A stretch of 57,388 nucleotides of DNA, from the NCBI RefSeq assembly GCF_003013815.1, contig NZ_PRLH01000006.1:1-57388 (forward strand), given 5' to 3'. The stretch comes from Cyanothece sp. BG0011. Lineage in GTDB: Bacteria; Cyanobacteriota; Cyanobacteriia; Cyanobacteriales; Microcystaceae. Below are positions 10,114-47,359 of this stretch, piece by piece. A program made the translations under genes and the position numbers. The notes below the pieces were generated by a model, which was not told where the DNA came from, made no database searches, and saw only the letters and a list, made by a program, of their open reading frames with translations. The number at the start of each line of letters is the position of its first letter. Position 1 is the first letter of the stretch.

Positions 10114-10709
10114 TATTTGTTTAAGGAAGTAATATAGTGGTCTTCGAGCAATTCTGCGATGTTTTTGGGATTCGCTTTACTGTGTTTAGCTTTTCCAGGC
10201 ATTAAAATTAAATTAGGAGCTTTTCCACAGCGTTTTTGGCAACTGGTTTTCTCAATGGTAACATGATCTTGAAGCCCTAAATTACAGAGGGTTTGTTCAA
10301 GCATTTGATGTAATTTTTTGCCTCCTCTTTTGGCACAATCAGATTTACCACAGAGTAAAATTTTACCCTTTTTCGGACAAGTTTTACCTCGTGGGTTGAC
10401 GGTAGCATCATTTTCTTTTTCTTGATCGCATTTGACATCACAACTGAGGCGAGTGATCTCATAAGCTTTTAATTTTAATTTAGTAAAATTACCCTTAAAT
10501 TCTTGTTCTCCTGCTATAGAAATCCACTCTCCAGGTAATACATTCAAGGCTTGAGTATCTCGCAAAGTCTTATCAATTTTAATCCTTAATTCTCGTTCTC
10601 CCACTGCTAGAATTAAAGCTTTCGATTGACCATTAGATTTATAAACAAAGCCGACAAACTTGCCTTGTAATTGAAAGGGAATGGTTTGACTAGAATTAAC
10701 TGAACTCAT
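10113..10709 (-). CDS. Thioredoxin-like [2Fe-2S] ferredoxin domain protein
   Basis: A 198-residue protein. Residues 1-90 form a beta-rich domain of unknown role (FVGFVYKSNGQSKALILAVG). Residues 100-198 form a thioredoxin-like 2Fe-2S domain, with Cys ligands in LLCGKSDCAKRGG and KTSCQKRCGKAPN. Such domains also occur in NuoE/HoxE subunits, so an electron-transfer role is likely. It is the promoter-proximal gene of a two-gene unit with the ArsC-like protein, at the outer end of the nif cluster. It may be a low-potential redox partner in nitrogen fixation, but this rests on location. Confidence 0.78.
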   Translation of the reverse strand: MSSVNSSQTIPFQLQGKFVGFVYKSNGQSKALILAVGERELRIKIDKTLRDTQALNVLPGEWISIAGEQEFKGNFTKLKLKAYEITRLSCDVKCDQEKENDATVNPRGKTCPKKGKILLCGKSDCAKRGGKKLHQMLEQTLCNLGLQDHVTIEKTSCQKRCGKAPNLILMPGKAKHSKANPKNIAELLEDHYITSLNK

Positions 10710-12994: not shown

Positions 12995-13207
12995 TTAGGG
13001 AAACTGGAAATAAATTTGAGCATCGAGCCAATCCCAAATTCTTTGTAATTGGGTCACTGAGATTAAGCCATATTGCCATAAGAGCATGGGGATGGGATCG
13101 CCAGGTTGTCGTTGGTTGTTGAGAACAACCGCCAGATCATCCCGTGATAAGGCCATTTCTTGTTGTAAAAATTGACTGAATTCTCTAGAAATTGAATTGT
13201 TTTCCAT
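12995..13207 (-). CDS. DUF2949-type small protein
   Basis: A 70-residue cyanobacterial protein starting at the ATG at 13207; an upstream TTG would add nine residues without support. The core FLQQEMALSRDDLAVVL, then PIPMLLWQYGLISVTQLQRIWDWLD, matches my recollection of the DUF2949 family. It is all-helical and soluble with no known activity. It ends 28 bases before the nifV start, so it is in the same minus-strand transcript. Confidence 0.7.
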   Translation of the reverse strand: MENNSISREFSQFLQQEMALSRDDLAVVLNNQRQPGDPIPMLLWQYGLISVTQLQRIWDWLDAQIYFQFP

Positions 13208-13801: not shown

Positions 13802-14530
13802 TCAAGGTAGTTTTTGTATCTTTTGTTCCAATTCTTCAATTCGGTCTAATAAAGTCCGAATGACTTGGCCCTCAACATCGGGTAATTTGCCATGTTCTAA
13901 GGGGCAACCCCGACCACTACGGGAGATAACACGGCCAGGAACGCCCACTACCGTGCAATCATGGGGAACATCGTTTAACACGATTGATCCGGCTCCAATA
14001 CGGACATGATTGCCAATTTCGATGTTGCCTAATACTTTTGCCCCGGCTCCCACAATGACCGAATCACCAACGGTGGGATGGCGTTTACCACTTTCTTTAC
14101 CAGTTCCCCCTAGGGTAACATTTTGGTAAATGAGGCAATCATCACCAATAATCGCCGTTTCCCCAATCACTACCCCCATACCATGATCGATAAACACCCC
14201 TTGGCCAATGGTGGCCCCTGGATGAATTTCGATTCCCGTGAGGAAACGGGCAAGATGGGAGAGAAAACGAGGAAAAAAGGGCAACTTGCGATGCCACAAT
14301 TCGTGGGAAAGACGATGGATCGCCAAAGCGTGTAAACCTGGATAGCAACACACCACTTCTAACCAATTACGGGCTGCGGGATCTCTTTCAAAAATGATTT
14401 GAAAATCCTTCCGCAAAAAGCTTAATAGGTTAGGTCGAGAAGTGCGCGGTTCAGAAATAGAGCTTTCTGACGGACTTCCACGACGCTCTCTGACAGGGAG
14501 TGATCCAAACATTAAATTCTGTGTTTGCAC
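13802..14530 (-). CDS. cysE: Serine O-acetyltransferase (nif-linked, NifP type)
   Basis: A 242-residue hexapeptide-repeat acetyltransferase that makes O-acetylserine for cysteine synthesis. It shows the N-terminal helical domain (residues 35-100), then left-handed beta-helix turns with the catalytic [13 protein letters not shown] and the [16 protein letters not shown] loop. A serine acetyltransferase gene inside nif clusters is known elsewhere as nifP and is thought to supply cysteine sulfur for Fe-S clusters. The GTG at 14530 is used; an ATG six codons in is an alternative. It is the first gene of the minus-strand wing, divergent from nifB across a 941-bp control region. Confidence 0.92.
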
Positions 14531-14665
14531 ATAGACTTAGTTGTTATGCTTATACCAAGTCCCCTCTTGTACCCATGCCCGAAGACGGTGAGTCAAATTG
14601 ATCTAATTTATTAATGGTGTCAGGGTTTTGAACAAATGCAGCTATATTAAGCCTTTCAGCGCTTT

Positions 14666-14752
14666 AAAAAATTTTTTTTGGGTCGGGGTCCTAGTATTTT
14701 TCTATGGGGGATAGAGTATTTTTCAGGGGAGGGCTTTGTATTTATGTACTCA
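14666..14752 (-). promoter_or_regulatory. Candidate activator site facing cysE/nifP (22-bp phased octamers)
   Basis: Read on the minus strand toward cysE, this arm is TGAGTAC, then octamers ATAAATAC, AAAAATAC and AAAAATAC exactly 22 bases apart, separated by 14-base spacers each with a run of C. It ends in an A8T6 tract. Plus-strand octamer positions are 14738-14745, 14716-14723 and 14694-14701. The arm ends about 135 bases before the cysE start codon. It mirrors the arm at 15155-15240. Confidence 0.7.
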
Positions 14753-15011
14753 GTCAAATCCCTTATTCTGCAAGACTTTGCTCCCTTTTTGCGACCCATC
14801 ATAGCGCAGATAACTGGCCACTCAAAATTAAAAAACTATAAAGGGGCTACAAGTCTCATCAAATCGACCGTTGAGCTATGTTATCCCTAAAAAACTCGAA
14901 CAGAACTGTTCATAGCAAACCTACCAACGAGAAAATGTTACATTGGATACAGAATTGAATTCCGTGACAGCACTGAGAAGGCAAGAGGAAGCTAACTCGG
15001 TGTTTCTTTTG

Positions 15012-15085
15012 ACAGTGAACAGTGACCAGTGACCAGCGATCAGTAAAAAATAACTGATAACTGGTAACTGGTAACTGGTAACTGA
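15012..15085. repeat. Inverted heptamer arrays (CAGTGAC / TAACTGG)
   Basis: Four or so CAGTGAC-like heptamers are followed, across AAAAAATA, by four TAACTGG-like heptamers that are nearly their reverse complement. They form an imperfect foldback between the two activator-site arms. The type matches cyanobacterial short tandem repeats. Confidence 0.6.
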
Positions 15086-15154
15086 GTATAAAACTAGAGG
15101 AGGAAAAACCCACCAAGAACAGAGCCAAAGCCTTACGTAATAAGACTTAGACCT

Positions 15155-15240
15155 TGAGTACCAAAAAGCTAGAGTCCCCCCGTAAAAATACAGAAGCCTC
15201 CCCTCATAAATACCTGTCCCCCGTACCCCTAAAAAAATTT
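15155..15240 (+). promoter_or_regulatory. Candidate activator site facing nifB (22-bp phased octamers)
   Basis: Read toward nifB, this arm is TGAGTAC (15155-15161), then octamers CAAAAAGC (15162), AAAAATAC (15184) and ATAAATAC (15206) exactly 22 bases apart, with C-runs in the 14-base spacers. A further C-rich spacer leads to AAAAAAATTT (15231-15240). It ends 231 bases before the nifB start codon. The same order and spacing appear in the arm facing cysE. Confidence 0.7.
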
Positions 15241-15471
15241 AATTAGGCTCAAATCCTCGCAACATAAAGGTTTTGAGTCTATGAGTACAGCTTAATAAAT
15301 CCAATGAATCCCAACCCACTCACCCTAACCCGACCCAAAATCAGGGGGGTGGTATAACTGACATAACGCCGAAGACATACAGTTCATTGTTTTACCCTTT
15401 GCTTTTAACTAAGCCTCTGACAATTCCTCTTACAGTCAGGCTTTAGCTCACCCTCTAACTTACGGAATTCA

Positions 15472-16947
15472 ATGTTACAATCTACTGGTCTCATTAATAC
15501 TGACGCATCTACGGCTAATCCCACCACTGCTCCGGGAACCTCATTTATTCCCAAAGCAAAAGGAGATTGTGCTTGTCCTTCTAGTGGGGATAGTACACAA
15601 ACCATAGATGCAAAGATTCAAGAAAGAATTGCCAAACACCCTTGTTACAGTGAAGATGCCCATCATCACTATGCACGGATGCACGTCGCTGTTGCCCCTG
15701 CTTGTAACATTCAATGCAACTATTGTAACCGCAAATACGACTGTGCCAACGAAAGTCGGCCAGGTGTGGTTAGTGAAGTTTTAACCCCAGAAGAAGCAGC
15801 CCATAAAGCTTTAGTAATTGGTGGAAAAATTCCCCAAATGACGGTATTAGGTATTGCAGGTCCTGGTGATCCCTTAGCGAACCCCAAGCAAACCTTTCGC
15901 ACCTTTGAATTAGTAGCAGATAAAGCCCCTGATATTAAACTCTGCTTATCCAGTAACGGATTGATGTTACCGGAATACGTTGATCGCATCAAAGAACTTA
16001 ACATCGATCACGTCACCCTCACCATTAATATGATTGATCCCGAAATTGGGGAAAAAATCTATCCTTGGGTTCGGTATAATCGGAAACGGTATAAAGGCAT
16101 AGAAGGGGTTAAGATACTTCATGAGAAACAAATGGAGTCCCTCGATGCCCTCAAAGAAGCGGATATCCTCTGCAAAGTGAACTCCGTCATGATTCCAGGA
16201 ATCAACGACGAACACTTAGCTGAAGTTAATGAAGTGATTCGTTCTAAAGGTGCATTTCTCCACAATATTATGCCCTTGATCTCCGCCCCTGAACACGGCA
16301 CCCACTTCGGACTCACTGGACAAAGAGGGCCTACCCCCAAAGAGTTAAAAGCTCTACAGGATAAGTGTTCTGGCAACATGAAAATGATGCGCCACTGCCG
16401 TCAATGTCGTGCCGATGCCGTCGGGTTATTAGGAGAAGATCGCTCTCAAGAGTTTACCAAAGAGAAATTCTTAGAAATGGCTCCTGAGTACGATGTCGCC
16501 CAACGTCAAGAAGTTCACGCCAACATCGAAAAATTTAACGCTGAAGTTAAAGCAGCCAAACTGCAGCAAAAAGCACAAAACAAGAAAGCCAATGCACCTA
16601 AGATACTAGTAGCAGTGGCAACCAAAGGAAACCGCTTAGTTAACCAACACTTCGGCCACGCTAAAGAATTCCAAATCTTTGAAGTGGACGGCACTGACGT
16701 TACCTTTGTGGCACACCGCAAAGTCGATCACTACTGTCAAAGTGGTTACGGCGAAGAAGCAACCCTCGATAACATTATTAAATCTATCTCTGATTGTAAA
16801 GGGGTACTTGCTTCAAAAATCGGTCATTGTCCTCAAGAAGAATTACGCAAAGCCGGTTTAGAGCCTTACGAAGCCTACGATGTCATCGATAACGTTGCCA
16901 TCAACTTCTACAAAGACTATATGCAAAAACAAGCATTAGGAGCTTAA
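15472..16947 (+). CDS. nifB: FeMo-cofactor biosynthesis radical SAM protein NifB
   Basis: A 491-residue protein that fuses two Fe-S clusters and inserts carbide and sulfur to give NifB-co, the precursor of FeMo-co. The radical SAM ligands are C78, C82 and C85 in [15 protein letters not shown]. Further Cys near residues 33-35, 58 and about 308-314 (CRQCRAD) can bind the other clusters. A C-terminal NifX/NafY-like domain (residues about 378-485, starting [20 protein letters not shown]) is fused, as in many NifB proteins. It is the first gene of the plus-strand wing, downstream of the phased-octamer site. Confidence 0.97.
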
Positions 16948-45648: not shown

Positions 45649-46914
45649 CTAAAACAGAGATAACTGCATATACTCAGTTCCAGAAGTTTCCTGCTTCACA
45701 GGCTGTCCACTGACTAAGCCTCCACAGGCAGACGGGATGAGACCCACCCCATGTATTTGCAATGCCTTTTTTATAATATTAACTGCGGCGTTTTCATCCC
45801 TATCCATTGTCAAATTACATTTCGGACATTCATGTAATCTAACTGATAGTGTTTTCGGAACTTTATGACCACAGCTTGAGCAATTTACTGTCGTTCCATG
45901 AGGACTAACTTTGACAAACCAAACGCCGCGTTTTACCGCCACTGCTTCTAATTTTGTTAAGAAATTTCCCCAAGCGACATCTAAAATACTCTTAGCCAAT
46001 TTAGTTTTAGCTAACCCTTTGATGTTTAAGTCTTCACAAGCAATAAAATCATAATTATTGACCAACCAATGTGCTGTTTTGTAGTGCCAGTCTTTTCGAT
46101 ATCTAGCAATTTTTTGATGAGTTAAAGCTATTCTTTTTTGTTGTTTCTCATAGTTTTTTGACCCTTTATTTTTTCTGGCTAATTTACGTTGTTGACGAGC
46201 TAAATGCTTTTGTCGATTGCGATAAATCTTTTTAACAGCAACTGTTTTTCCTTGACTGGTAGTCAAAAACTCTTTTAATCCTACATCAATTCCAACTGCT
46301 GATTTGATATTATCTATGGGAATAACATTCGGAATCGTCTCATCTTCTGCTGTAATACAGACATAGTATCCATCTGCTTTTTTAACGATTGTAGCTGTTT
46401 TAAGAATAAAACTTTCAGGAATCGGACGATGGATTACAACTGGTATAGCTCCCCATTTTTTTGTCCAAAGACAATTATTTTGAAACTTGATAACAGCTTT
46501 GGGATGATTAACTCTCGAAAAACTAAAAGACCTTAATTGACCAGCTTTTTTAAATCTAGGTCGCCCTCCTCTTTTACCTTTTTTATCTGGAACTAACCAT
46601 CTTTTCCAGGCTTTTTCTAATCTTTGAAGATTCATCTGTTGAACTTCGCAGTAGATATTTTTGTAGTCAGGAAAGAGAGTTTTTGTCTGTTTTAAATCTG
46701 ATTGTTGAGTGTAATAATTAACTTTTTCTGGTATTTCTCCTATGGTTTCACTAATTAAACTGCATCTATCAATAGCACATCGAGTCCGTCTTAACCAGTC
46801 CAAACGCTGACCTAGCGCATAGTTCCAGTGACGACGTAAAAGTTCTAACCACTGGTTTATACACTCTGCTTGCTTTTGATTAGGCTTGATTCGGTACTCA
46901 AATGTCAGTATCAT
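45649..46914 (-). CDS. tnpB: TnpB RNA-guided nuclease (IS605 OrfB)
   Basis: A protein of about 421 residues, with the start at the ATG at 46914 (MILTFEYRIKPNQ). The helix-turn-helix-type N-terminus is followed by a RuvC-like nuclease. The three acidic residues are in AVGIDVGLKEF, ACEDLNIKGLA and TMDRDENAAVN, and the zinc ribbon has CSSCGHK and CPKC. All key residues look intact. TnpB proteins are RNA-guided DNA nucleases that favour retention of the element. It is divergent from tnpA with a 31-base gap. Confidence 0.92.
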   Translation of the reverse strand: MILTFEYRIKPNQKQAECINQWLELLRRHWNYALGQRLDWLRRTRCAIDRCSLISETIGEIPEKVNYYTQQSDLKQTKTLFPDYKNIYCEVQQMNLQRLEKAWKRWLVPDKKGKRGGRPRFKKAGQLRSFSFSRVNHPKAVIKFQNNCLWTKKWGAIPVVIHRPIPESFILKTATIVKKADGYYVCITAEDETIPNVIPIDNIKSAVGIDVGLKEFLTTSQGKTVAVKKIYRNRQKHLARQQRKLARKNKGSKNYEKQQKRIALTHQKIARYRKDWHYKTAHWLVNNYDFIACEDLNIKGLAKTKLAKSILDVAWGNFLTKLEAVAVKRGVWFVKVSPHGTTVNCSSCGHKVPKTLSVRLHECPKCNLTMDRDENAAVNIIKKALQIHGVGLIPSACGGLVSGQPVKQETSGTEYMQLSLF

Positions 46915-46945
46915 AATACTATTATTGTAGCACTTATCGTTGTTA

Positions 46946-47359
46946 ATGAACAATAGTTATAGTAAAGAAAATAGGTCAGTTTACTTACTTGCCGTACATA
47001 TTGTCTTAGTGACTAAATATCGGAGAAAAGTCATTACCCCTGACATCCTATCTCGTCTGCAACGAATTTTCACAGATACTTGCAGTAAATGGGATTGTCG
47101 ATTAGTAGAATTTAATGGTGAAACAGACCATGTTCATCTACTTGTTGAGTTTAATCCTAAAGTTCAACTTAGTAAATTTATTGCTAATTTAAAAACTGTT
47201 TCTTCTCGTTTAATCAGAAAAGATTTTTCAGATCATTTAACTCAATTTTATGGACAAAAACCTGTGTTCTGGACTGGTTCTTATTTTATTGCTACTTGCG
47301 GTGGTGTAACGATTGAACAACTTAAACAATATGTTGAAAAACAACAATCTCCTGTTTAA
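46946..47359 (+). CDS. tnpA: TnpA Y1 HUH transposase (IS200/IS605)
   Basis: A 137-residue Y1 transposase, with the start at the ATG at 46946. The HUH motif is in DHVHLLVEF (about residue 65) and the nucleophilic Tyr in EQLKQYVEKQQ near residue 128. It should excise and insert the element as single-stranded DNA. It is full length and shows no stop codons, so the element may still be mobile. Confidence 0.92.
   Translation: MNNSYSKENRSVYLLAVHIVLVTKYRRKVITPDILSRLQRIFTDTCSKWDCRLVEFNGETDHVHLLVEFNPKVQLSKFIANLKTVSSRLIRKDFSDHLTQFYGQKPVFWTGSYFIATCGGVTIEQLKQYVEKQQSPV

Follow-up and report, generated by a model that had tools for sequence, protein, structure and literature searches.

How is a nif cluster switched on from a single gap between two divergent wings, and does that gap control anything besides transcription? 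The window, meaning the whole stretch of DNA analysed here (57,388 nt of Cyanothece sp. BG0011, GCF_003013815.1, contig NZ_PRLH01000006.1, positions 1-57,388, forward strand), raises this question with nifB and nifP/cysE on either side of such a gap, and nifS and nifV nearby. Among the matches listed, which cover at least 80 loci, its nearest named relative is 'Unicellular cyanobacterium SU3' (NifB 98%). A TnpB-type RNA-guided nuclease gene lies in the right part of the window (45649-46953). CnfR is reported to activate divergent transcription from the nifB and nifP promoters, where conserved motifs are its presumed sites (PMC5943405, PMC8510180). The genes referred to below are:

12998-13207, minus strand: DUF2949 gene, 70 aa, in the nifP wing
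13802-14530, minus strand: nifP/cysE, open reading frame listed from the GTG at 14530
14510-14530, minus strand: nifP/cysE start region, with a conserved ATG at 14512 versus the GTG at 14530
15472-16947, plus strand: nifB (TIGR01290, 661 bits)

The first-pass annotation gave the gap a length of 941 bp, which holds for the reading frame as listed. The true nifP start is probably the ATG at 14512, not the GTG, and if nifP begins there the gap measures 959 bp.

Two phased arrays in the nifP-nifB gap

The gap contains two arms, each oriented towards its own gene:

14665-14755, minus strand: nifP/cysE arm with TGAGTAC, three 22-bp units and an A/T tract (array model E 2.9e-18)
15152-15242, plus strand: nifB arm with TGAGTAC, three 22-bp units (one degenerate, two good) and an A/T tract (array model E 2.8e-15)

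Both lie where the first-pass annotation had placed two matching arms, each with TGAGTAC and with octamers at 22 bp. On the minus strand, the nifP/cysE arm consists of TGAGTAC (14752-14746), ATAAATAC (14745-14738), AAAAATAC (14723-14716) and AAAAATAC (14701-14694), followed by 14 bp and an A8T6 tract. The nifB arm, on the plus strand, consists of TGAGTAC (15155-15161), CAAAAAGC (15162-15169), AAAAATAC (15184-15191) and ATAAATAC (15206-15213), with 17 bp between the last octamer and an A7T3 tract. The description of three octamers per arm is accurate for nifP/cysE, where all three are exact and 22 bp apart, but has to be relaxed for nifB, whose first octamer is degenerate (3 of 8 letters off); the 14-bp spacer before the A-tract, likewise, belongs to the nifP/cysE arm and not to the other. 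The remainder of the gap had been described as unlike the arms. It does lack octamers, but it also holds a conserved RNA-gene-like element, which is described below.

Chance can be excluded for the arms, since the real gap has three exact octamer pairs at 22 bp and 20,000 first-order resamplings of it produced none at all. The pattern AWAAATAC-N12-16-AWAAATAC occurs four times in the 5.6-Mb genome, three of them inside this gap; its backwards-read version, used as a control, occurs three times in the genome, so that what stands out is the clustering within one gap and not the genome-wide count. Across the same genome, the only strong matches of the array model (see below) are the two arms, the next best having an E-value of 0.02. 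A second TGAGTAC box (15282-15288), followed by TTAATAAATCCAAT, is located between the nifB arm and its promoter; it looks conserved in relatives and may be one of the published motifs.

Conservation of the arrays and co-occurrence with NifB and CnfR

Upstream regions were compared for 93 nifB loci (the 94 cyanobacterial loci minus L032), among which some genomes appear twice, from two collections. In 40 of the 93, one or more exact octamer pairs are spaced at 22 bp. Counting all octamer pairs 9-60 bp apart gave 80, of which 58 are at 22 bp and 15 at 44 bp, while 20-fold resampled sequence yielded three pairs in total and none at 22 bp. The repeat unit is 22 bp long, AWAAATAC plus a 14-bp part that is mostly T-N-G-N-A-C-C-Y and C-rich to the end (87 distinct units). 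Most of 18 aligned arrays have TGAGTRC before the array, and an A/T tract follows. Conservation in relatives had been named as the check on the arms, and it is what we found: nifB is preceded by arrays of the same 22-bp spacing, and several lineages have them on the nifP side too.

A sequence model built from the 18 aligned arrays was searched against 386 cyanobacterial genomes with a cut-off of E <= 0.001 and stricter filters, at which weak matches are lost. It matched 68 genomes, 67 of which have a full NifB match. Put the other way round, the array is present in 67 of the 68 nifB genomes and in one of the 318 others (G113, a weak match, E 7e-4); the one nifB genome without it is G085. Some NifB match is present in 108 genomes; the NifB count comprises the 68 of these in which it is strong, and leaves out five divergent ones of 47-50% identity (G002, G066, G116, G213 and G298).

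The CnfR homologue of this genome is a 532-aa open reading frame at G000:C49 (HTH_3 2.6e-8; Fer4_10 3.3e-4, below the Pfam cut-off), identified from its domains and from the cysteine pattern read directly: 4Fe-4S cysteines at the N-terminus and an XRE helix-turn-helix at the C-terminus. Used as a query, this protein has a homologue in 74 of the 386 genomes, including all 67 that have both array and nifB. A CnfR match without an array is seen in seven genomes. Five of these are f2 genomes (G002, G066, G118, G207 and G298) in which the local match stops before the helix-turn-helix; in G116 the NifB match is divergent, and in G085 the CnfR match is at 38%. In four of the five f2 genomes the NifB matches, too, are no more than divergent or partial. 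Two Nostocales have a third array (L210:3224-3313 and L212:2447-2536), which precedes a gene for a protein of 141 and 137 aa, respectively, without Pfam match; this gene stands back to back with one that, by eye, resembles cysteine synthase.

The earlier suggestion that the arms are sites of CnfR or of an equivalent regulator is strengthened by this conservation, by the co-occurrence of array, NifB and CnfR, and by the reported activation by CnfR (PMC5943405, PMC8510180). We have high confidence that the arms are activator arrays, with CnfR as the presumed binder, and CnfR-type activation of both wings through them appears well supported.

Distance between arrays and promoters

Each arm of the window faces a predicted promoter:

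14550-14557, minus strand: nifP extended -10 TGGTATAA, 144 bp after the start of the last octamer
15350-15357, plus strand: nifB extended -10 TGGTATAA, 144 bp after the start of the last octamer

Both have an extended -10 without a -35, and a sigma-70 consensus scan found no -35/-10 pair at either. The nifB promoter is reported as CnfR-activated, with an extended -10 and no -35, and nifB and nifP as transcribed divergently (PMC8510180, PMC5943405); the reported start of the nifB transcript lies 282 nt before the gene in Anabaena 7120 and 296 nt before it in Nodularia (PMC3141674, PMC3610870). Distances were measured between the first letter of the last good octamer and TGNTATAA. For 43 nifB regions they amount to 141-145 bp in 36, 130-133 bp in five and 163-165 bp in two, the last two being loci in which the last 22-bp unit is decayed. 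Thirteen arrays on the nifP side (minus strand) gave 143-146 bp in five, 131-133 bp in six and 166 bp in one; that of L095 has no promoter of the TGNTATAA type. The two main distance classes, 141-145 and 130-133 bp, thus differ by one helical turn, which lends support to the idea, first drawn from the 22-bp spacing, that a bound protein contacts one face of the DNA.

A conserved RNA-gene-like element between the arms

Between the arms, at 14936-15010, lies the element mentioned above, which the first-pass annotation had missed. It combines an extended -10, a conserved 5' segment and a terminator-like hairpin:

14936-14944, plus strand: predicted extended -10 TGTTACATT, at the same distance in 65 of 68 loci
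14946-15010, plus strand: predicted small RNA with pairing segment (14952-14975), hairpin (about 14969-15004) and T-rich tail to 15010

Judged from the -10, the 5' end of the small RNA is probably at about 14950-14952. Its 18-nt core ATACAGAATTGAATTYCG, with up to three differences, was found upstream of nifB and on the nifB strand in 68 of 94 loci, and in 65 of these TGNTANN[TC][TC] precedes it at one fixed distance (background 0.16 per 100 nt), a promoter-like word judged by its sequence. A hairpin such as CUGGAGUAG...CUACUCCAG and a T-run follow the core in most loci. Of the seven pairs in the consensus stem, six show a double change in at least one sequence; single-sequence z values are -1.7 to -2.0, and a generic terminator scan was negative. 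No match to a known family was found among the 4227 families of Rfam 15, the gap having one weak snoRNA match elsewhere, below the gathering score. The idea that CnfR drives the RNA in the geometry of the arms is not supported: in the window, the strand of the RNA carries no clear array at about 142 bp ahead of the RNA's promoter. In the Nostocales loci compared, plus-strand arrays are on the nifB side of the element, and one loose octamer pair lies further upstream in L065. Just after the element, a short tandem repeat (AACTGGT...) occupies 15011-15085; close relatives have other repeats at the same spot.

A covariance model of the element (R1) was built from 44 sequences, with E <= 1e-5 taken as a strong match. 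Fifteen distinct copies had been held out, and the model recovered every one of them, at E 2.6e-6 or better; it had no match in 16 non-cyanobacterial nifB loci. Strong matches, 53 in total, were found in 50 of the 386 genomes, 43 with nifB and seven without, and in 42 of those 43 the match is about 330-815 nt upstream of the NifB match and on the same strand (Fisher p 6e-32, relatedness ignored). A strong copy is absent from 25 of the 68 nifB genomes. Laboratory strains that have the element include Chlorogloeopsis fritschii PCC 6912 (L045) and Fischerella muscicola PCC 7414 (L047). Weak matches (E 1e-4 to 0.01) occur in 31 further genomes, 26 of them without nifB, and are taken as model background except in G109, where the weak match adjoins nifB.

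Seven genomes of genus code g3, which from their size and the absence of nif appear to be Microcystis-like, have a good element without full NifB, CnfR or array. The pairing segment is intact in the copies L145:2180-2242, L146:1737-1799, L147:2241-2303 and L148:2327-2389, and in the four g3 genomes examined the element is beside a glycosyltransferase-like gene. In three related small genomes of genus code g6 (2.8-3.1 Mb), a second copy (L149:2252-2315, L150:2238-2299 and L151:2289-2350) has peroxiredoxin- and Fur-type genes as neighbours. About 190 bp upstream of this copy lies a weaker array that points the other way, which is the layout of the nifP arm plus the RNA. G129 has a good copy on another contig, away from nif (L152:2322-2387), and a decayed copy at nifB (L021).

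Complementarity to the nifB start

The 5' segment of the element is complementary to positions -10 to +2 of nifB:

15462-15473, plus strand: nifB start-codon region ACGGAATTCAAT(G), perfect complement of 14954-14965

The exact YRCGGAATTYAATG occurs in the genome at the nifB start only. Start-like words with up to two mismatches are no commoner genome-wide than a backward control. Pairing could be aligned for 66 of the 93 loci: all 12 positions pair in 45 (one with a G-U), and at least 11 in 50, G-U counted. The observed pairing count was reached in none of 10,000 partner shufflings, and 89.9% of the cells are paired compared to 24-50% when the segments are slid. Double-change cells number 24, against a shuffled mean of 5.4, while two of five covariation measures are not above the shuffles: pairs with a double change number 4 versus 2.5, a value that 61 of 500 shuffles attain, and further pair types number 10 versus 11.0. 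Joint variation is seen at columns 12 and 15 (U-A/C-G, and C-G/U-A/G-C), and three lineage types match (TTCCGT/ACGGAA, TTTCGC/GCGAAA and TTTCGG/CCGAAA). L010 shows a compensation in one strain (GAATCG versus CGATG), and L069 a changed yet matching pair with a one-base bulge (by reading). On a quick NifB tree of the 66 rows, column 12 has one change on each side and column 15 three on each side, four for the pair; the shuffle figures overstate the case because these co-changes are few, and a test on independent pairs cannot reach significance. In L015-L018, L040, L051 and L052 the pairing has one or two mismatches, and in L030 and L033 the element segment is decayed and the nifB motif retained.

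Further predicted partners

The same 5' segment is complementary to the nifP start CACAGAATTTAATG (14523-14510, minus strand), with one mismatch and one G-U in 13 (by reading). In seven relatives of the family Microcystaceae (L006-L010, L035 and L036) the nifP start is CACGGAATTYAATG; the window copy has one mismatch. In L025 the nifP start matches its own RNA over 14 nt (by reading), whereas in L010 the RNA tracks nifB but has one mismatch to nifP. The nifP start is unmatched in the Nostocales L209 and L211 and in L011, L012, L021, L023, L026, L068 and L077.

The strongest predicted partner in the window is the start region of the DUF2949 gene (about 13217-13194), which ranks first of 257 start regions at -26.4 kcal/mol, followed by a 2Fe-2S-like gene at 10709 (-20.3), nifB in third place (-19.2) and nifP in eighth (-16.0). 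For nifB and nifP, such energies do not by themselves amount to proof, since a reversed-sequence control attained -19.2 kcal/mol, the same as nifB. Across the own genome, with the element itself excluded, the DUF2949 start again leads the listed antisense matches to the second half of the segment, with one mismatch (the next has two). For relatives, the predicted energies of the DUF2949 pairing are -39.9 kcal/mol in L216, -37.4 in L036 (22 pairs in the 28-nt part tested; 24 by reading, one of them a G-U at the AUG), -28.9 to -33.8 in L035, L213, L044, L089, L218 and L219, and about -21 in L215 and L217; the six loci L035, L036, L213, L044, L089 and L216 together span -31 to -40. Six nif-wing DUF2949 copies of Nostocales gave no target (-5.8 to -10.6 kcal/mol), nor did the two Microcystis-like copies tried, and DUF2949 copies outside nif range from -5.9 to -14.3 kcal/mol. 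No perfect target shared by four Microcystis-like genomes was found among the matches listed.

Proposed mechanism and alternative explanations

Taken together, the arrays and their spacing, the co-occurrence, the RNA-like anatomy and the complementarity make it likely that the gap is a master control of nif, in which two CnfR-type arms flank a small-RNA gene; from the same observations we infer CnfR binding, the existence of a transcript, its repressive sign and its timing. Each arm would be a composite activator site, made of the TGAGTAC box, three 22-bp units and the A/T tract, and would stand about 108 bp ahead of an extended -10 promoter that shows no clear -35, always in the same helical phase. 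Such a site would be bound, probably on one face of the DNA, by a protein of the CnfR type, which has 4Fe-4S and XRE helix-turn-helix parts and would activate nifB and nifP divergently. Between the arms, an independent gene is the probable source of a small RNA, some 60 nt long. The 5' segment of this RNA would pair with the start codon and its surroundings in nifB and, within this family, in nifP and in the DUF2949 gene of the nifP wing as well. Blocked translation is the usual effect of pairing over a start codon, so repression is the likelier sign, and the RNA would most likely prevent translation initiation until the nif mRNA outgrows it. It would be either a gate before induction or a brake after it, the sequence being compatible with both. 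With less assurance, we also lean towards a broader statement: that a conserved small RNA of cyanobacterial nif clusters, encoded between the CnfR arms or beside them, pairs with the start codons of nifB (in some lineages also of nifP and DUF2949) and sets a threshold or delay for nitrogenase assembly, and that Microcystis-like lineages without nif have kept it for another target.

The best surviving alternative, which we nevertheless regard as unlikely, accepts the arms as CnfR sites and takes the middle element for a DNA operator, one repressor binding at the nifB start, at the nifP start and at the inverted copy between them. The common word is indeed inverted between the sites, and it would co-vary if the specificity of the binding protein drifted. 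An operator would however not account for the extended -10 at a fixed distance from the middle copy, nor for its hairpin and T-run. The partner word moreover overlaps the start codons in two registers (nifB and nifP versus DUF2949), with a G-U pair where the AUG forbids a perfect complement, and in L010 both sides have changed at one position within a single strain.

Slightly less probable still is that the middle element is a mere terminator or insulator between the divergent units, has no function in trans, and owes its complementarity to an inverted duplication of a gene start. The hairpin and T-run on the nifB strand would fit a terminator, and the long antisense match to the DUF2949 start suggests an origin by duplication. 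What speaks against this is that almost every invariant column falls outside the hairpin, within the unpaired 5' segment, and that the element is kept away from nif in G129 and in the Microcystis-like genomes.

The least probable alternative concerns the arms, which might be bound by another regulator or function chiefly as bent DNA with phased words; curved DNA typically has A-rich words in phase at two helical turns, as the arms do. This is hard to reconcile with the CnfR homologue in every array-bearing nifB genome, with the missing array in the five f2 genomes whose CnfR-like match ends before the helix-turn-helix, and with the reported CnfR activation of both promoters (PMC5943405, PMC8510180).

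Significance and comparison with known systems

If the preferred reading of CnfR-type arms around a small-RNA gene is true, one intergenic region would hold both a transcription switch and its own RNA brake. The nifB product makes the precursor of the nitrogenase cofactor, and transfer of nif clusters into non-fixing hosts is described as an active aim (PMC5943405). Promoter constructs cut from the gap would then carry or lose the brake unknowingly, and poor NifB output could be partly translational. The fixed 22-bp and 11-bp rules, for their part, offer a direct test of how CnfR meets RNA polymerase.

Full-text literature searches, and passages of a 2022 review on nitrogen-related ncRNAs (PMC9170634), gave no RNA for cyanobacterial nifB; an unnamed transcript of the element may already be tabulated, because subscription papers and start-site tables lay outside the search. 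NfiS and NfiR of Pseudomonas stutzeri are described as ncRNAs acting on nitrogenase gene expression (PMC9170634, PMC6606865). Compared by description only, they resemble the element in that role, and differ in belonging to another phylum and, for NfiS, in having nifK mRNA as partner. Closer in kind are the cyanobacterial antisense sRNAs described as acting on mRNA 5' regions, NsiR4 (gifA) and NsrR1 (nblA, all1871) (PMC9170634, PMC7281752). The element is like these in being short, with its own promoter, a 5' pairing segment, a terminator-like hairpin and predicted partner sites at translation starts; it is unlike them, again by description only, in being encoded within the control region of its predicted partners and in its predicted targets in nitrogenase assembly.

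For the arrays, the class is already published, as the CnfR-dependent nifB/nifP promoters of Leptolyngbya boryana (motifs I-IX) and Anabaena variabilis (CS1-CS3). Equating the published CS1 with the RNA gene was considered and dropped; the stated distances are ambiguous. The arms of the window, likened to these motifs by description and not by motif letters, share with them the divergent nifB-nifP gap, the conserved upstream elements, the extended -10 without a -35 and the presence of a CnfR homologue. Beside this published class, the present analysis sets the 22-bp register of the arrays and their distance of 131 or 142 bp to the promoter, both measured here.
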